Virus record (IMG/VR): IMGVR_UViG_3300042465_006967
Location: 1 to 24,384 of that record
Reading direction: 5' to 3' (one strand)
Source of the DNA: a virus
DNA length: 24,384 bases
This document shows positions 13,677-23,255 of this stretch, piece by piece. Within the stretch, counting starts at the first letter, position 1. The number at the start of each line of letters is the position of its first letter. A program made the position numbers and the translations under genes. The notes under the pieces were generated by a model that saw nothing but the letters and a program-made list of their open reading frames with translations, was not told where the DNA came from and did not search any database.

Positions 13677-14117
13677 TTATTTTCCCCATTTAATGCTTGA
13701 AGCAGATTGAGCAGTATTTCCAAGACTTGAAATTATCGCCATAGGCAGTAATTTTTTTCTTTGTTTTCTTGCTTGTTGTGCTTGCTGTCTTAAAAGATTT
13801 GCTTCCATTTGAGCATTTCTTTTTATAATTGCAATGTTTTGTTCTTTATCGGCAATAGTTTTATCAAAAATGTTTAAAACAGAGCCTTCCATTTCCGCAC
13901 CACTGGTAGCAACAGAAAGTTTTTGTTCGCCAAGTAAACCTTCAAATTGTTTTGCGGTTTGTATGGCTTGAAATTGTCCTTGCTCTTCAACTAATCGAGC
14001 TTGGTCTTCCAAAGCCATTGCTTGGCTTTTTAGGTCTTTTTTAGCCATATTAGCACCATAAATGCTACTAGTCATATTTAAAATTGCTCCAGCCGCTTGA
14101 ATATAAGGTGCTGCCAT
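13677..14117 (-). CDS. Internal virion protein (gp14-like)
   Basis: A 146-residue protein. The N-terminus is hydrophobic and Ala-rich (PYIQAAGAILNMTSSIYGAN), then a long Gln/Ala/Glu helix (QAMALEDQARLVEEQG, continuing to about 60), SVATSGAEMEGSVLNIF (68-84) and a Gln/Ala/Arg helix (ANLLRQQAQQARKQRKK) before a second mildly hydrophobic end. The central segment with a SGxxxxGS turn followed by a D-x-x-x-x-I-x-x-N-A helix is characteristic of T7 gp14-type proteins, which are ejected to form the outer-membrane part of the DNA channel. Position directly after the nozzle gene agrees. AGGT lies about 9 bases before the ATG, one of the few late genes with a ribosome site. Its start shares one base with the upstream stop. 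Confidence 0.75.
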   Translation of the reverse strand: MAAPYIQAAGAILNMTSSIYGANMAKKDLKSQAMALEDQARLVEEQGQFQAIQTAKQFEGLLGEQKLSVATSGAEMEGSVLNIFDKTIADKEQNIAIIKRNAQMEANLLRQQAQQARKQRKKLLPMAIISSLGNTAQSASSIKWGK

Positions 14118-16330
14118 TATATATTTACCTCGTAAGTTATGTTTTTAATATTCATTGCTTGTGGCTCTTCTTGTATAATCGAATATTTTCTATCATAACC
14201 CCAATCGCCAGCAACACTTATTAATTTTACTCCATCTTTAAAGGCTGGGGCTTCATTCATATTATCGTTTAAATCTCTTGAAATTATTGGCAATGTTTTT
14301 CCATCAATAACAATAGAACCTGCCCTAGATGTAAAAAACTTTATAGCTAATTCAGTAATTCGCAACTGTTTATTTTGTTGTGAACCAATGGTTTGTAATA
14401 ATTTTTTACTTTCAATTGGATAAGAAGTAAAGGTGGATTTATATTTTAAACCAACATGAATTATTGAAGCAAAATTTTCAAGAGTTATTTTACCTTCAGC
14501 ATTTACTGTTTTACTTTTAGGGTCAGTTGCTCCATCTCCATTAGCTTCTACGCTTGCCCCTATCAAATGAGTTAATCCGCTTACTTCTTGAATTGCGATT
14601 GCCCAATTATTAGCTGTTAAAGAATTTGAGCTAAAATCTCTAATTATTGTTATAGAAACCTGAGTTGATGAAGTATAGGCGGTAATTTTAGCTTTACCCG
14701 TGCCGTTTAAATTTCTTATTTCTTTACCAACACTTGACGCAGAAAATATGGCACTACCTGCGGTTGCTATACCGCTTCCAATAGTTAAAGTTGTGTTTTG
14801 CGTTCCATCGTAAGTTAAACAAGAATCAACATAAACATAATTTAAATTATCATAACTAAAATTAGGCTCTAAGATTTCAATAAATCTTTTTTCCACGCCG
14901 TTAATTGTTCTTTTGACTAAAATATAAATTTCATCATATTCTTTAGCTGATGGTATAACCGCTAAATCTTCGACAATTCCATTTGTTGTAAATCTGGTCC
15001 AACAATTAACTTCTTGATCGCCTTCAAACACAAATTTTGCAATTTGCCCGTCTTCACGCACAGCCCAAATTGTTGAAACTGGGTTTTGTTGATAATCGAA
15101 TCTTTTTAAACCTGTTCCCGTAATATGATTGCTTCTAATTGAGGCATCTTGAGCTTTATATTTTGCTTCGGTGTTTGTATAATTTATTGCCCTAACTTTT
15201 TGTTTACCCCTTTGTAAATAAAAAGGTGTCGAATCGCAATAAACAGGGTCAACCCACTCGCTACCAAAAGCAATTTGTCGTTTTAAATCAATATCAGTAT
15301 TTGACATACCAGCAGAATTATTTGAAGGCTTTGCTCTCCAGATACTATCGCTACAACCAATTAACAAAACTTCATCACTAAATAACCATAAAATAGAATC
15401 GTTAGTTGAACTGGCAATTGTTCGATTAAATCCATCATCGGCAGTTAAAGAGGTGTAATCTATATCAAAATTTTCATAATCGGCGGATTTGCTAAACCAT
15501 ATTTTTTGAGTTTCATTAATTGAGCCAGCTAAAACAAGTCTTTGTTCGTGGAATGTTATTGCCCTTGGATAACTGCGATGTAAGCCAAATTCTCCCTCGC
15601 TCCAAGTATATAAATTTTTATTAACCATCGTGCTTACAATGGCAGATTGCGAGGTATAGCCAACGGAAGTTGATGAAGTAAATGCAGTAATTTTTAAATA
15701 AGCATAAGCCGTGCCATCTCTAACTAGCCATAAACTACCAACATGATTTGCGGTAAATGGTGTGTGTCCACTTGCGGTCATTGTTCCAGTTGTTCCTATC
15801 GCGCCGTGGTGATTTATTGATACAGTTCTTGTTTGTAAAATATTTTCTTTTTGATATGGTCCATAAAGCAAATCAATTTGTGAAAAAGTCCAACTAGAAT
15901 TATTAAATCGAATTAATTTATAAAATCCTTTTAATGGATGAACCATCCAAATAACATCATCTTTTTGAACATAACGAATAAAATCTAAATCACTTTCAGA
16001 AAAGCTATTTGCTACTTCATAAGCACTTCCGCCACTTAAAACTAATGCTTGCTGAGAATAAAATCTAAAATAACCCGCTCCTAGCTCAATAATTAAAACT
16101 TGGTCGACATTATATTTAAACCTGATAATTCTGGTTTTTTTTGTTGAATCTTTAACTTCATTAACAAATCTTGTGCCTTTTCTTCTAAATAACCAGCCTT
16201 GAGGGTGAACATCAAAATTTTCAACAATAGATCCGCCATTAAAAAAAGGTTCAAAATCGACTAAGCCGTCAATAGTAGGCGATAATTCACCCGCATTAAA
16301 TCGTGTTTGTATTTCATTAACACTAGCCAT
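14117..16330 (-). CDS. Tail tubular protein B (nozzle, gp12-like)
   Basis: A 737-residue protein. The N-terminus TRFNAGELSPTIDGLVD (9-25) and PQGWLFRRKGTRFV (43-56) are signature segments of podophage nozzle proteins (the FxxGELSPxxxGRxD ... PQGxxxRRPGTRFV pattern). The rest is beta-rich with several Thr/Ser-rich repeats (GTTGTMTASGHTPFTANHVG and a similar GIATAGSAIFSASSVGKEI) that look like two related small domains. In T7 the hexameric gp12 closes the tail below the gp11 adaptor. It overlaps the gp11-like gene by 8 bases, as expected for proteins made together. Length is close to T7 gp12. Confidence 0.85.
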   Translation of the reverse strand: MASVNEIQTRFNAGELSPTIDGLVDFEPFFNGGSIVENFDVHPQGWLFRRKGTRFVNEVKDSTKKTRIIRFKYNVDQVLIIELGAGYFRFYSQQALVLSGGSAYEVANSFSESDLDFIRYVQKDDVIWMVHPLKGFYKLIRFNNSSWTFSQIDLLYGPYQKENILQTRTVSINHHGAIGTTGTMTASGHTPFTANHVGSLWLVRDGTAYAYLKITAFTSSTSVGYTSQSAIVSTMVNKNLYTWSEGEFGLHRSYPRAITFHEQRLVLAGSINETQKIWFSKSADYENFDIDYTSLTADDGFNRTIASSTNDSILWLFSDEVLLIGCSDSIWRAKPSNNSAGMSNTDIDLKRQIAFGSEWVDPVYCDSTPFYLQRGKQKVRAINYTNTEAKYKAQDASIRSNHITGTGLKRFDYQQNPVSTIWAVREDGQIAKFVFEGDQEVNCWTRFTTNGIVEDLAVIPSAKEYDEIYILVKRTINGVEKRFIEILEPNFSYDNLNYVYVDSCLTYDGTQNTTLTIGSGIATAGSAIFSASSVGKEIRNLNGTGKAKITAYTSSTQVSITIIRDFSSNSLTANNWAIAIQEVSGLTHLIGASVEANGDGATDPKSKTVNAEGKITLENFASIIHVGLKYKSTFTSYPIESKKLLQTIGSQQNKQLRITELAIKFFTSRAGSIVIDGKTLPIISRDLNDNMNEAPAFKDGVKLISVAGDWGYDRKYSIIQEEPQAMNIKNITYEVNI

Positions 16331-16892
16331 TTTGTCTTATATCAATCCATTCGTTAGATGTTAAAGGTGTTTCGTTTCTTATTGCTTTAAATTGTGTCAT
16401 AGCTTGATACAAAGCATTTTCATATTCGGATAATAATTGTTTTTCTCTACTATCCGAGCCAGTTAAATTATAGCATATTTTTGTAGCAAGCAATAAAACA
16501 AAAGCATTTTTAAAACCTGATGTATATTCACTAGGGTCTGTAATTCTAGCAATGTAGGTAATTTTTATATTATCGGTGTTAGTCAATATATATTTTCCTT
16601 CTATTGTGTAATCTGGTTCATTTTCAATAGAAATAAGTTTAATATATTCGGGATTAGTTGGTAATGCAAATTTATAGCTCCATTCGTAAAGCGGTGTTTC
16701 GGTAAGCTTATTTAAGGCTTGCCTACGCACCGCAAAACTCCATTCGGCTTCGTTTAAAATCTGATTTAATGCAAAATCATAAGCAAGTTTCAAGTCAGTA
16801 GCTTGTTGGCTTGGGTCAGTGTCAATATCTTGAACACGACCCTTACCTAACTTTAACAATGCAAGATTACATAATTCAGTTTTTGAAGTCAT
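16323..16892 (-). CDS. Tail tubular protein A (adaptor, gp11-like)
   Basis: A 189-residue protein. It opens with ELCNLALLKLGKGRVQDID (6-24), the first helix and turn typical of gp11-type adaptors (an NxALxxIGxxxIxDID pattern), followed by LNQILNEAEWSFAVRRQALN (43-62) where the EWxFAxRR motif is a strong family mark, and an LPTNPEYIKLISI segment. Such proteins form a dodecameric ring between portal and nozzle. Length matches T7 gp11 (about 196). The order gp11-gp12 is kept and both neighbours overlap it by 1 to 8 bases. Confidence 0.88.
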   Translation of the reverse strand: MTSKTELCNLALLKLGKGRVQDIDTDPSQQATDLKLAYDFALNQILNEAEWSFAVRRQALNKLTETPLYEWSYKFALPTNPEYIKLISIENEPDYTIEGKYILTNTDNIKITYIARITDPSEYTSGFKNAFVLLLATKICYNLTGSDSREKQLLSEYENALYQAMTQFKAIRNETPLTSNEWIDIRQNG

Positions 16893-19264: not shown

Positions 19265-19513
19265 TTATTTGTTGATAGTGTTTAAATCTAAGTAATCGTC
19301 AATATATTGAAATGCAAGTCTCATTCCCACTTGTAAATGTGAGGCTAAAACATCATCGCAAGTATATTCTCTAGAAATTAATTCAGGATTAATAACTAAA
19401 GCCGTTCTTAGATCTTTGTAAACTATCAAACCCTCTGCCGAGCCAAATACTGTGTTAAATATTCGCTTTCTTTCTATAAGTTTTTCCTGTAATTGCTTTT
19501 CTGCGTCAATCAT
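19265..19513 (-). CDS. Bbp19-like small virion protein
   Basis: An 82-residue protein: ERKRIFNTVFGSAEGLIVYK (14-33) then LRTALVINPEL, SREYTCDDVLASHLQVGMRL (48-67) and an AFQYIDDYL helix. The F-x-x-x-F-x-x-x-x-G-x-x-V-x-x-D-L start and the later G-R-L/I-x-I-D-x-x helix resemble the Bbp19 family named from Bordetella phage BPP-1, encoded near the portal in many podophages. In T7 the comparable small proteins near the portal are ejected virion proteins, so a similar job is possible. The ATG overlaps the portal stop (last A of TAA or ATGA pattern) and GGGGG lies a few bases before it. Confidence 0.6.
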   Translation of the reverse strand: MIDAEKQLQEKLIERKRIFNTVFGSAEGLIVYKDLRTALVINPELISREYTCDDVLASHLQVGMRLAFQYIDDYLDLNTINK

Positions 19514-21183
19514 TAAACCCCCGCTTGTTTCATTGTTGCCAGTGTTTGTGCTTCGGTGTTAGCGTCAATCATTTCTTGTTGTTGTGCCATTTGTTGCTGT
19601 CTTGCTTGTCGCTCTTCATCAACTTTAGAAGCATTTTTAATTAATTTCGGGTCAATTTGTAAAATATCCGCTTTATATCGAGCTATTCCGTCAAAATCTA
19701 CCGTGTCTAATATTGCTGGATTTGCTTGAGCCAAATTCATAACTGACATTAAAAAAACATCAACCGAGTTATTTTTGCCTAATTGATTTGCTTGATTAAC
19801 TGGGTTAATAAATTCAATTTTCATTTTAGGAAAAATCTTTTTACCTGTAGTTGCGTCAGTTGTTCCTTTCATTTTATTAGGCATCTCAGGAAAGGGAGCA
19901 TCAGGCAAAAGCGTAAAATTACCATCTTGAGCGTAAGATAATTTAAATAAAATATCATAAACTCTATCCAAAATTGATTCAAGATATTGTTGCAATGAAG
20001 AAGCTAAACTTCCCATAATTCTATAGCTTTCTGCTCTTAATTCTAATATTTGTGTTGCGGTAGCTCTTGGGTCGTCTAATACCGATAATTTATCTAAAAA
20101 GAATATTTTTCTAATTGATTCTTGTTTTTGTGTTATTAATTCAACTGCTGGATTAATTCCTTTGCTGTCATTAATCGGTTCAACTGCCCGACCATTGCCA
20201 ACAGGTGATTTAACCATGTTTAAAGCTCTTGGTTGCAAGTTCAATTGTTTTTCAAATTGAGCATTTACAATTAAAGGTGGGTTTAATATTTTTTGGATTG
20301 ATTCAAAATAATCATACCACATGCGATTTAAACTTCTTGCATCGGGTAATGCATACACTGCTTGCCCCGTTCCGTAAACTTCACCAGTCCCTTTGGCACT
20401 TCTTCCGACAGCTACAGGAAAACTATTAAAACCAGTTTCGCTAATAATCTTGCCATGTGTTGGATCTAACCAAATACCTTGAAACGGCATGTTAACAGTG
20501 TCAATTTTTGTTGCGTCCCTTTCATTTCTTGGCATTATGTAAAGTCTAACATCAAAATTTGTGTTAGGTTTTTCAATTGAAGCTTTTTTAATTACTACAT
20601 CGATATCGCCACCATCAGCAAATTTTTTGACAATATCTTTAGCCGTCATTTTCATTAACAAAATGCAAGTATCAACTTTGCCCTCGTCATTTTCGGTAAT
20701 TAAGATATTTTTAATGTGAATTGCTTTAAAATTGATTAATGAAGATTTGCCTTCTTCAATCTTTAATGCAATAGTTCCAAATGTTGCAAAGTCTTTTAAA
20801 TTTTCATGATGGGCATCTTCAAAATTGCCTTTAGTGTCATAGAGAACATTCCACATTTTATCAGCAACCGCTTTGAGATATTCTAAAATTTCATCATCGG
20901 TTTTTAATTCCTCATCTTCAATTTTAATTGTAAACCATGGCGTTGCTTTATTCGTCATTGTGCCGTTAAGAATTGACGCAAAATTTTCTAATGCAATTAC
21001 CATTGTTGAATCATTAGCAACAAACAAATCCTTTTTATCGCCTGCGGTTTTTTCGCTTGTAATATCGGTTTTAAGTGGTCGAAAATACTTTGCTGTATCT
21101 TGCCAATTTGTCTCAAAGTTTTTGCGATTAGTTAATAAATCATTGTAAAGATTATTAAGCTCTTCGATTCTTTTATCTGCCAT
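19513..21183 (-). CDS. Portal (head-to-tail connector) protein, T7 gp8-like
   Basis: A 556-residue protein with the podovirus connector pattern: LTNRKNFETNWQDTAKYFRP (17-36), SILNGTMTNKATPWFTIKIE near 70-90, AHHENLKDFATFGTIALKIE near 125-143, GTGEVYGTGQAVYALPDARS then LNRMWYDYF near 260-290, and DDPRATATQILELRAESYRI then a long helix near 360-390. The C-terminal tail is a Gln/Ala-rich helix ending AQTLATMKQAGV. It would form the dodecameric portal through which DNA is packaged and ejected. It lies between terminase and scaffold genes; length agrees with T7 gp8 (about 536). Confidence 0.9.
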   Translation of the reverse strand: MADKRIEELNNLYNDLLTNRKNFETNWQDTAKYFRPLKTDITSEKTAGDKKDLFVANDSTMVIALENFASILNGTMTNKATPWFTIKIEDEELKTDDEILEYLKAVADKMWNVLYDTKGNFEDAHHENLKDFATFGTIALKIEEGKSSLINFKAIHIKNILITENDEGKVDTCILLMKMTAKDIVKKFADGGDIDVVIKKASIEKPNTNFDVRLYIMPRNERDATKIDTVNMPFQGIWLDPTHGKIISETGFNSFPVAVGRSAKGTGEVYGTGQAVYALPDARSLNRMWYDYFESIQKILNPPLIVNAQFEKQLNLQPRALNMVKSPVGNGRAVEPINDSKGINPAVELITQKQESIRKIFFLDKLSVLDDPRATATQILELRAESYRIMGSLASSLQQYLESILDRVYDILFKLSYAQDGNFTLLPDAPFPEMPNKMKGTTDATTGKKIFPKMKIEFINPVNQANQLGKNNSVDVFLMSVMNLAQANPAILDTVDFDGIARYKADILQIDPKLIKNASKVDEERQARQQQMAQQQEMIDANTEAQTLATMKQAGV

Positions 21184-21184
21184 G

Positions 21185-21211
21185 TTAAATACCTAAAAGT
21201 TTTTTTCGTTC
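21185..21211. repeat. C-terminal motif repeat, copy shared with paralogue B
   Basis: CCTAAAAGTTTTTTTCGTTC at 21192-21211 recurs exactly at 21629-21648 in the neighbouring gene; it encodes the ERKKLLG motif. Another diverged copy lies at 21597-21615. Confidence 0.8.
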
Positions 21212-21568
21212 CATTACGCCTTGCATAGATGAACCCGCAAAAGTAGTGCGTTTTTTTAAAGCTTCTTCTTGTGCCTTTAAATCAGCTTCAGAAAGCAATT
21301 TAAGTCTTGTTTGTTCTGCGACTTGTGCGTTTAATGCGTCGGTTTGTTGTGCTTGAACATCCGCTTGAACGAGTGCGTTTTTCATGCCAGTTTCTTGACT
21401 GTTGATGTCAGACAATCCTTTTGCTCCACCAATTGCACCTACTGGACCACCTAAGGAACCACCCGCAACAGTTGCCACAGCTTTTCCAACAGTTTTAGAG
21501 CCTGTTAAATCAGCGGCAACCTTACCGATTCCGCCAGCAAATCTTTTCCATTTTTTACCAAATCCCAT
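21185..21568 (-). CDS. Small virion-type protein, paralogue A (gp7.3-like)
   Basis: A 127-residue protein. It begins MGFGKKWKR, followed by a Gly/Ala/Val-rich stretch (AVATVAGGSLGGPVGAIGGA, about 50-69), a long Gln/Ala/Leu helix (about 83-107), and a C-terminal RTTFAGSSMQGVMERKKLLG ending. The end matches the common podophage pattern of an R-x-T/S-x-x-x-G segment followed by RKxLLG, found in gp7.3-type small virion proteins; T7 gp7.3 is a minor ejected protein with a basic Gly-rich start. It shares its first 9 codons, 5' leader and C-terminal motif with the next gene upstream, so the two are paralogues. It ends two bases before the portal ATG. Confidence 0.6.
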   Translation of the reverse strand: MGFGKKWKRFAGGIGKVAADLTGSKTVGKAVATVAGGSLGGPVGAIGGAKGLSDINSQETGMKNALVQADVQAQQTDALNAQVAEQTRLKLLSEADLKAQEEALKKRTTFAGSSMQGVMERKKLLGI

Positions 21569-21589
21569 AAAATATATAATTATTATTAA
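21542..21589. repeat. 48-bp direct repeat around a start codon, copy 1
   Basis: This stretch, from TCTTTTCC to the AT-rich leader ending ATTAA, matches 21889-21936 at 46 of 48 positions. It covers the first nine codons of paralogue A and about 20 bases of leader before its ATG. Only two substitutions separate the copies. Confidence 0.85.
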
Positions 21590-21591
21590 AT

Positions 21592-21915
21592 TTAAATTCC
21601 TAAAAGCCTTTTTCGCCCCTGCTCATTTCCTAAAAGTTTTTTTCGTTCAAGCTCCATTTGTATATCACGACCAGCAAAAGAAGTTTGAGAGTTTTCTTGT
21701 TGTTTGACAGCAGAAGCCGTCGCCTCATTAATTAATTTTTTTCTTTTTTCGTTGAATTGTGTTGCAAATTTTTCAGGATTTATTTTTAAAAATCCCAAAG
21801 GGTTTTTAATTGGATCATAGCCAATTAATTCATTGCGTCTTGCGGGATCGTTAAACAGTGAATTTATTTGTTGCTTATTTTCTTCAAGTCTTTTCCATTT
21901 TTCACCAAATCCCAT
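21592..21915 (-). CDS. Small virion-type protein, paralogue B
   Basis: A 107-residue protein starting MGFGEKWKRLEENKQQ. The middle differs from paralogue A: it is charged and has DPARRNELIGYDPIKNPLGF and FATQFNEKRKKLINEAT. The C-terminal end TSFAGRDIQMELERKKLLGN is followed by EQGRKRLLGI, so the RKxLLG motif is duplicated with a 10-codon spacing. It shares start and C-terminal motif with the downstream gene and thus seems to be a diverged duplicate or a shuffled copy. No ribosome site; the leader is AATAATTATATATTTT. It is encoded between the large terminase and the portal region, so a role in head completion or ejection is likely, but not shown. Confidence 0.55.
   Translation of the reverse strand: MGFGEKWKRLEENKQQINSLFNDPARRNELIGYDPIKNPLGFLKINPEKFATQFNEKRKKLINEATASAVKQQENSQTSFAGRDIQMELERKKLLGNEQGRKRLLGI
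21597..21645. repeat. Tandem copy of the RKxLLG coding motif
   Basis: TTCCTAAAAGCCTTTTTCG at 21597-21615 and TTCCTAAAAGTTTTTTTCG at 21627-21645 differ at two positions and are 30 bp apart, so each encodes the same RKxLLG pattern in frame. Confidence 0.8.
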
Positions 21916-21936
21916 AAAATATATAATTATTGTTAA
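21889..21936. repeat. 48-bp direct repeat around a start codon, copy 2
   Basis: Second copy of 21542-21589 with two differences. It covers the start of paralogue B, its leader and the last 4 bases of the large terminase gene (its stop codon and one base before it). Confidence 0.85.
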
Positions 21937-23255
21937 TAAGTTATTGGGCTACTTATTGCAGTGTCCCATCGTTGCCTTGATTGCCCTATATTCTCACGAT
22001 AAGATACCGCTAAATATCTAAAAGCATCTGCCCCATGAGAAGCCCAATCGTGCTTTGGTTGTAATTTAAAAGTATTATTCTTATTGTCAAACTCTTTTTT
22101 GTAATTCTTGAGCGTCAATAATCCCCTTCTTGTTGTTGCTTCATTAAAGAAACATTTAGGAAGAATGGAGCGAACCGCATTAATACCATCATCAATAGAA
22201 AGTTTTGGAGCAATCATAAATCTTAAGCCAAGTTCATAAGCCGTTTCTAGTCTTGATTTGCCGTTAGTAAATTCCCTTATTTGTATGTCGTGCGGTGCGT
22301 AGTGCTGTTCGTAAATATAAGTTTTGTCTTTTACTTCTTTAATGTAAGAATCTAAGCCCCTGTTATTATCCTCAATGTAATCAATAATTCTTATCTCATT
22401 GCCGACAAATTGAGCAAACCAGATTGTCGTAGCATCACCAACCCCCAAATCCCAGAAAGTAAAGACGGGTAAGGCTGGATTATGTGGATAATCGCCAATC
22501 CTTCCTTGCTTGTCTAAGTCATCAATGATTTTAGAGTAATAAGCCCCCTCGATCGGATTGTTAAAGCTACAAAGAAATTCTTGATTAAAGAAATCAAGTG
22601 TCTTGCCCTCGCTTAATATTTCCGCTTTGACTTGCTCTAATTGCTCGCTTGTAAATACTCCCGTTTCTTCCGCTGTCTTAATTTCCGAGTGCCAAACATC
22701 GGGCATTTTCTGAGCCATCTTATAAAGTTCGTAAGCGTGATTTTGCCCCTTCGGCGTGAAATTAAACATTGCCCAGCCGTTATTTTCAAGCAACATCGGT
22801 TGAATAGTCCCCCACGCTCTCGGGTCTTGCTCTGCGTATTCCGAAAACACAGCCCCTTTAATTCCTGCACCCCGTAAGCTGTCGGGATTATCCGAACCTA
22901 CAATTTGATAGATAGAGCCGTTTTTAAGTGTTATCTTTAATTCTTTCTCGTTTTTCTTAGCAATTAATTCTTGCGGGATATAATCAATATACTTCCTGCC
23001 CTCGCTATTTGTTTCTTGCCAAACTGATTTTGCCCCCTGAGCATAGCTCGGGAATATGTGCCAGTAAGTGCCGACGGCTTCAAACATAGCACTATATAAA
23101 ATGCGATTCAAAGCTAGTAAATCTTTGCCAGCTCTTCGATGCCAAACATATATTGCCCTCTTTTTTTTATCATCAATCATCGCAGACCAAAGCCCCATTT
23201 GGTAGGGTCGGGGCGTGTAATTGTGCGGGATTATTATTTCTTGTTTATTTGTCAT
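21933..23255 (-). CDS. terL: Terminase large subunit
   Basis: A 440-residue two-domain packaging motor. The ATPase part has an adenine-binding-like PRPYQMGLW (15-23), Walker A HRRAGKD (39-45, K44), Walker B-like AVFSEYAEQDP (135-145, with E139 and a Ser where Asp is usual) and a coupling motif FNFTPKGQNH (164-173). The nuclease part has FWDLGVGDATTIWF (267-280, D269), HYAPHDIQIRE (318-328) and HDWASHGADAFRYL (402-415, D410), the acidic residues of the RNaseH-like terminase nuclease. It would translocate DNA into procapsids and cut it. It overlaps the small subunit gene by 11 bases. Length is normal for short podophage TerL. Confidence 0.95.
   Translation of the reverse strand: MTNKQEIIIPHNYTPRPYQMGLWSAMIDDKKKRAIYVWHRRAGKDLLALNRILYSAMFEAVGTYWHIFPSYAQGAKSVWQETNSEGRKYIDYIPQELIAKKNEKELKITLKNGSIYQIVGSDNPDSLRGAGIKGAVFSEYAEQDPRAWGTIQPMLLENNGWAMFNFTPKGQNHAYELYKMAQKMPDVWHSEIKTAEETGVFTSEQLEQVKAEILSEGKTLDFFNQEFLCSFNNPIEGAYYSKIIDDLDKQGRIGDYPHNPALPVFTFWDLGVGDATTIWFAQFVGNEIRIIDYIEDNNRGLDSYIKEVKDKTYIYEQHYAPHDIQIREFTNGKSRLETAYELGLRFMIAPKLSIDDGINAVRSILPKCFFNEATTRRGLLTLKNYKKEFDNKNNTFKLQPKHDWASHGADAFRYLAVSYRENIGQSRQRWDTAISSPITY

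Follow-up and report, generated by a model that had tools for sequence, protein, structure and literature searches.

In an environmental, short-tailed podovirus, two small genes between those for the terminase large subunit (terL) and the portal, here called A and B, encode proteins with a homologous C-terminal tail, and in related phages the core of A occurs as unlike alleles between near-identical flanks. By analogy with phage T7, A and B may be minor components of the virion, located in the portal-tail channel and resembling gp7.3, each built from a docking tail and an exchangeable core, and we consider the chance that this reading is right to be slightly better than even.

Genes A and B have a C-terminal module in common

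The window, by which we mean the whole stretch of 24,384 bases that was analysed, carries a gene series on the minus strand in the order terS, terL (21933-23255; phrog_2, E 8e-28), B, A, the portal or head-tail connector (19513-21183, immediately 3' of A; PF12236, E 4e-85; PDB 8ck0_A, E 8e-46), an 82-aa open reading frame (ORF), a scaffold or protease-like protein (phrog_458, E 1e-6) and the major head protein (phrog_3437). The series continues with a 154-aa ORF, a probable adaptor like T7 gp11 (16323-16892) and a tail nozzle that is like T7 gp12 by role (14117-16330; PDB 8ck1_A 'Tail Nozzle', E 2.7e-79). After the nozzle come an internal protein resembling gp14 (phrog_418), two proteins of very large size and one that is fibre-like. 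The adaptor was assigned by position and co-conservation, with no significant family match, and terS was named by position, its family search having given none significant. The best matches of the window portal among 214 phage records were pelagiphages such as HTVC010P, at ~30% identity. The solved structures closest to the portal and the nozzle, 8ck0 and 8ck1, are full-length identical to the Carin-1 portal and nozzle, as judged from phmmer range and score.

Both ORFs were confirmed on the minus strand, as described in the original prediction. Gene A (21185-21568, 127 aa) has a basic start, an exchangeable Gly/Ala-rich core, a Gln/Glu-rich stretch and a C-terminal tail, KKRTTFAG...ERKKLLGI; gene B (21592-21915, 107 aa) has a charged core and a tail homologous to that of A, with the RKxLLG motif twice. 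The repeat common to the ERKKLLG-coding ends of the two genes was likewise confirmed, as was the doubled motif of B, whose copies lie 30 nt apart and are 79% identical. The second copy, RKRLLGI (21595-21615, minus strand), belongs to a repeat with a unit of 30 nt and is absent from B of L008 and L009 (the loci compared with the window are numbered with the prefix L). As a side observation, a repeat with a 30-nt period at 21597-21654, the 3' end of B, is what yields this second RKRLLG. The claim that the middles of the two genes are unrelated stood for the part N-terminal to roughly residue 84 in A and residue 54 in B, and failed beyond it: 43 residues ending in the motif could be aligned (hhalign probability 96.8%, E 2.1e-10), that is residues 84-126 of A (21191-21319, minus strand) with residues 54-96 of B (21628-21756, minus strand). 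A and B therefore have a real common C-terminal module that goes beyond the short motif.

Among 20 sequences of A, R121, L124, L125 and G126 were invariant, and K6 and K8 were kept in at least 90%. The basic start is kept in A only; B keeps only the constant C-terminal peptide. Whole-gene dN/dS was 0.11-0.22 for A (9 pairs) and 0.21-0.60 for B (8 pairs), from which we conclude that both are selected as proteins. The tail of A had a lower dN/dS than the core in 8 of the 9 pairs, the exception being L004-L009 (tail 0.17, core 0.04). For B, the tail value exceeded that of the core in 5 of the 7 pairs for which both could be computed, which argues against a uniformly strict tail. Predicted folds were poor (pLDDT 52 for A and 65 for B), and the Gly/Ala-rich stretch of A showed mild hydrophobicity only (Kyte-Doolittle value 1.17 over 19 residues). 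No Pfam family scored above cut-off for A or B, and a tblastn search of 50,697 phage records with A gave no match at E <=10.

The near-identical starts are a feature of the window

The blocks around the two start codons had been reported as alike at 46 of 48 positions, and this holds in the window, where the repeat extends to 52 nt at 94% identity (21538-21589 vs 21885-21936); it is, however, no family feature. In the eight other loci with both starts complete, the identity between A start and B start was 27-35 of 48 (L001 34, L002 35, L003 35, L010 34, L022 29, L008 31, L009 29 and L016 27). Aligned with its relatives, window B has a B-type leader as far as TTAACAAT, then ~43 nt of A-type sequence across the start codon, and then B-type sequence again. 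Since this A-like tract (21889-21931, minus strand) lies within B-type flanks and was seen in the window only, it points to a recent conversion from A to B. The near-identical starts are thus most likely a short, recent conversion tract, with the start and leader of A (21538-21589, minus strand) as the likely source of the copied sequence. The suggestion that MGFGxKWKR is a docking signal common to both proteins had to be rejected, because B starts in relatives with MGLGKFFKR, MGFGKSLKR, MGFGKSFKR, MGFGFFYKQ, MGFSKGRYM or MGFGKMINQ and its start in the window was in all probability copied from A. Three of four promoter-like sites lie at or over the start repeats, on the opposite strand; they were dropped as candidates, their count being near chance (4 vs a mean of 2.4).

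Cores of A are exchanged and B comes and goes

The original prediction pictured a shuffling of cores between conserved ends. Among related phages the cores of A (residues 10-69; 21362-21541, minus strand) indeed vary between constant flanks, in three clades, and it was only as an exchange between A and B that the picture failed: in the loci read, we saw no A core in a B protein, nor the reverse. The exchanged core is mainly that of A. In the closest pairs with unlike cores, core DNA was 34-41% identical between flanks of 88-97%. For L009-L005, identity was 93% at the terL end, 37% in the core, 97% in the tail and 95% at the portal start; the corresponding values were 93, 41, 95 and 96% for L022-L010 and 91, 38, 94 and 96% for L004-L007. 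The third clade, with portals 45-47% identical to the window portal by tblastn, showed the same pattern in L127-L128 (upstream 93%, core 34%, tail 93%, portal 95%) and in L021-L023 (96, 40, 88 and 91%).

Two core types were each present in both of the first two clades (12 loci), with core identities of 34-49% over all unlike-type pairs and 60-100% within a type, and purifying selection was seen inside each core type. The portal tree implied at least three changes of core type among the 12 rows, with 9 of its 17 inner branches well supported and 3 open. The five loci of the third clade held four core types, 31-51% alike between types, with tails 83-93% alike between loci; L021 and L128 have the first 11 residues and the tail in common, with a core only 37% identical. 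The core of B varies too, B of L016 being a protein of 71 residues with hardly more than a start and a tail.

B was present in the window, L001, L002, L003, L008, L009, L010, L016 and L022, and in L067, where it is cut by the contig end. A stood alone after terL in 19 loci, several of them near-identical (L004-L007, L011-L015, L017, L021, L023, L024, L052, L078, L082 and L127-L129). Relatives with a single gene and no exchange of cores would have spoken against the shuffling idea; single-gene relatives are thus common, yet their cores are exchanged. On the portal tree of 21 rows, in which some branches are weak, the presence of B changed at least four times. In L024, which is without B, A is preceded by the same 21 bases that precede B in L002, L003 and L022, and the bases before A in L015 and L017 match the B leader of L016 at 20 of 21 positions, so that A of phages without B takes the leader proximal to terL. 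Such an arrangement is what either recombination from one start to the other or an insertion at that place would leave, and it fits both directions.

A belongs to the vertex and tail module

A gene with a [KR]xLLG end lay directly before the window-type portal in 24 of 24 distinct slots, a count that includes the window, takes portals of at least 40% identity, leaves out six loci with a cut slot, and contains some loci fetched by A itself and 19 from a terL scan. L004, L007 and L008 keep A together with a portal and an adaptor that are 91-94% alike to those of the window, with a nozzle at 92% in L007 and L008, whereas their major capsid protein is only 23-25% alike. L018, L019 and L020 have a window-like terS (57-97%) and terL (90.8-91.5%), and in them A, B and the window-type portal, adaptor and nozzle were without match (12,455 of 19,405 bases for L018). 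Since A is kept with portal, adaptor and nozzle despite an unlike capsid protein, and is missing despite a window-type terminase, we consider it part of the vertex and tail module. Two further observations concern neighbouring modules. The capsid gene seems to have been replaced within the head module of L004, L007 and L008, and the major capsid protein of L021 and L078 is likewise little like that of the window (23-26% alike over all five loci). L018 and L019 carry an unlike protein of a 685-aa type after terL, a module swap just past that gene.

For the function of such a gene, T7 offers two models, described in the retrieved passages of PMC11784390. In T7, six C-terminal loops of gp7.3 (residues 84-98) are anchored on the nozzle gp12 at the adaptor-nozzle junction. 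Its N-terminal part, mostly positive and unresolved, was taken to account for density surrounding the DNA, and in the authors' proposal gp7.3 is ejected on tail opening. The second protein, gp6.7, encircles the portal barrel, and its portal-bound loop lies near the N-terminus (residues 2-15). A resembles the first of these in layout, having a basic start, a variable and perhaps disordered body (pLDDT 52) and a constant C-terminus, and thus the two marks of a gp7.3-type protein: a place in the slot upstream of the portal, and a basic N-terminus combined with a constant C-terminal peptide. The idea that the FAG...RKKLLG tail is a docking signal stood up as the best reading by analogy with gp7.3. 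We infer from this analogy that A and B are located in the virion, dock at the nozzle, contact the DNA and are ejected. A search for virion proteomics or structures of A/B-type proteins found none.

In the mechanism that we propose, the FAG...RKKLLG peptide would hold copies of the protein to the inner wall where adaptor and nozzle meet, with the nozzle as the proposed docking site. The protein's N-terminal portion, which in A begins with a basic stretch, would lie stretched out in the channel, against the end of the DNA, and would be the first to leave when the tail opens. If it is mainly the tail that must fit the phage's own vertex, the preceding part would be free for exchange, so that recombination in the flanks, which are conserved, could trade one core allele for another between phages. 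B would then be another protein with the docking tail, one that the slot may acquire or lose. Recombination that joins one gene start to the other would excise B precisely, leaving A on the terL-proximal leader, and the 52-nt direct repeat produced in the window by A-to-B copying would favour such a loss. The second motif of B may be a second docking copy, and the two tail-tagged proteins may use one docking ring.

The adjacency to the portal in all 24 slots is equally what would be seen if the tail peptide bound the portal itself and A and B acted like T7 gp6.7, which surrounds the portal barrel (PMC11784390, in the passages retrieved), bridging the barrel and the internal core proteins and being ejected together with them; the Gly/Ala-rich segment of A might, with its hydrophobicity value of 1.17, even enter a membrane. 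We regard this as an unlikely though serious alternative, since the gp6.7 loop is N-terminal and the constant part of A and B is C-terminal. In addition, the gp6.7 family (phrog_1391) was neither listed for A or B of the window nor present among the best 25 of 29 families for the A members. Somewhat less likely still is that A and B are assembly or packaging factors absent from the mature virion. Their position between terL and portal would suit such a role, in which the constant peptide would be needed for docking of the motor. The three loci with window-type terS and terL, however, continue with another module and are without A, which shows that A is not tied to the terminase; it goes instead with portal, adaptor and nozzle.

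Proteins with similar ends occupy the same slot in other phages

Of 2969 distinct ORFs, 43 have a C-terminal [KR]xLLG followed by 0-2 residues and 42 of these lie between terL and portal, compared with 33 of 148,450 shuffled proteins that have such an end; the pattern was picked once the data had been seen, near-identical relatives are numerous among the 43, and many loci were fetched for the slot. Among 14 phages hand-picked from the best 60 of the 214 portal matches, ten had a recognisable slot tail (HTVC010P, Lederberg, Baldr, HTVC028P, HTVC100P, Skadi-6, BcepC6B, Carin-1, APEC and TPWB-05), although only five of these have the strict [KR]xLLG end. No recognisable slot tail was seen in the other four (VP5, vir555, ctVRi840 and 23E28.1). 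The tail also occurred in the slot of ct8d5349, PfDIW6, HU1, Vibrio 1.021.A and AF, which were chosen by tail or N-terminal similarity, and in epsilon15 gp3 and BPP-1 bbp22, which were chosen by name; Carin-1 gp47, in the same slot, ends in STILSG...KTLLGQ. Tandem pairs of tail-bearing genes with unlike cores were present in seven phages (HTVC010P, Lederberg, Baldr, HTVC028P, HTVC100P, Skadi-6 and ct8d5349).

Several side observations were made in this survey. Gene 2026-2379 of L066 (Pseudomonas phage UFJF_PfDIW6 gp03) is annotated as portal but is a slot protein of 117 aa whose tail reads TILTG...KTLLG; the gene after it encodes the head-to-tail connector. Gene 1480-1986 of L112 (Pseudomonas phage Andromeda gp29) is 56% identical to PfDIW6 gp03 over residues 4-37 of the latter and has another C-terminus, a module exchange from the opposite end. 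A scan of genome contigs gave distant portals only, at three loci. Small genes upstream of a distant portal in L122 (4715-4924) and L124 (1690-1938) end in ANILAGVGTKKDTLG and KKMLGTKA; the contigs were binned to Bacteroidales and Flavobacteriaceae genomes, and the gene is close to the portal in L122 only. The tail motif is possibly of wider spread. In L100, L102 and L106, a protein of ~210-230 aa encoded some genes ahead of a distant portal has a GLQLGQTSLGKGLFV-like end, another recurrent C-terminus.

A profile of 22 slot tails matched the held-out epsilon15 gp3 (E 1e-14), BPP-1 bbp22 (E 1e-8) and the slot gene of L025 (E 1e-4), and with the same profile A and B did not rise above noise (the best A member came 34th of 2969 with E 11, the best B 66th with E 29). 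In hhalign comparisons with other slot tails, the A family aligned at the C-termini (P 0.13, 13 tails) and B aligned over another region (P 0.19). The family phrog_831, to which HTVC010P gp03 and gp04 belong, was not listed for A or B of the window at E <=1, nor for window A at E <=10, and was absent from the best 25 of 29 families for 20 A members. PDB searches with the A profile, HTVC010P gp03, Carin-1 gp47 and bbp22 gave chance-like matches only. With no significant profile link, the kinship of A and B to other slot proteins rests on slot, end motif and layout, and their likeness could be either faded homology or convergence.

This bears on a further explanation, namely that B is an old, diverged tandem copy of A, that KxLLG ends elsewhere are convergent and that there is no docking tag. 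The homology of the B and A tails, the lack of a significant profile link to other slot tails and a B tail that is no more constrained than the B core all fit an ordinary duplication. We nevertheless think it improbable, since divergence alone would not give unlike core alleles between near-identical flanks, and 42 of the 43 ORFs with the end motif lie in one slot. That the core differences are chimeric metagenome assemblies is most improbable: the window-type relatives are all IMG/VR contigs and conserved flanks favour mis-joins, but the second core type recurs in contigs of three datasets (L004, L009, L022), with its own divergence and purifying selection.

Comparison with known systems

A protein of the kind we propose for A and B is known in T7, and what would be new is the tail-tagged, core-swapping, tandem form. 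We did not find this form in open-access literature that included the retrieved portions of PMC11784390, PMC13320782, PMC8954989, PMC11440229, PMC10575957 and PMC9509320, in which absence is weak evidence. The matches listed for the motif strings, going by titles and the beginnings of abstracts, included no phage slot protein. In most of the phage records consulted, the small gene products of the terL-portal slot carry the annotation hypothetical, and for Peru-2 the authors of a preprint state, in its retrieved portions, that orthologues of gp6.7 and gp7.3 were not readily identifiable (PMC13320782). A rule that combines slot and tail would help in spotting such proteins. The exchange of cores between near-identical vertices suggests that the core is selected from outside the virion, perhaps by the host, and makes the role of the first protein to leave a podovirus tail a testable question. 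As a wider and tentative idea, podoviruses with a T7-type nozzle might share an address tag by which a [KR]xLLG-tailed protein is loaded in the tail channel and leaves it before the DNA does. The terL-portal slot would then be a cargo bay, with exchange diversifying its cores because the host envelope is either their target or what recognises them, and tandem pairs would load two cargoes at one ring.

Sequence homology of A and B to gp7.3 or to phrog_831 was not significant. The gp7.3 family (phrog_1320) was matched by 4 of 20 A members, with a best E of 0.011, and was not listed for A or B of the window; single scans gave E 0.09-0.2, with alignments that spanned either the N-terminal part or the greater part of the protein. 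T7 gp7.3 itself scored E 2.1 against the tail profile (rank 25 of 2969), and a 24-sequence slot profile listed two PDB chains, of which T7 protein 7.3 was the second (E 5.8, not significant). In a tblastn search with gp7.3, the weaker rows among the matches listed (40 of 668) covered mostly its C-terminal half, in a setting where the low-complexity filter hides part of the N-terminus.

The phrog_831 slot proteins of HTVC010P and other pelagiphages are like A and B in their slot, in a [KR]xLLG end or near variant and in their tandem pairs, and epsilon15 gp3, BPP-1 bbp22 and Carin-1 gp47 are joined to them by the tail profile. The other slot proteins have a T..(T/A)G block before the end motif, as do A and B, and BPP-1 bbp22 resembles A in its layout of Gly/Ala-rich part, Gln-rich part and tail. 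The tails of the phrog_831 group differ, however, in having a GRxSTILTG block where A and B have KRTTFAG. T7 gp6.7 is a small core protein whose gene lies near that of gp7.3; it contacts the portal via an N-terminal loop, whereas in A and B the constant part is the C-terminus. T7 gp7.3 (PDB 9jyz), like A, is small, sits in the slot upstream of the portal and has a basic start of the MG-K type. It has neither an RKKLLG/LLG end nor a tandem partner with the same tail, and in T7 gene 7.7 lies between its gene and the portal, whereas in the window A adjoins the portal. The docked C-terminal loop of gp7.3 has its counterpart in the constant C-terminus of A, for which docking is proposed by analogy.
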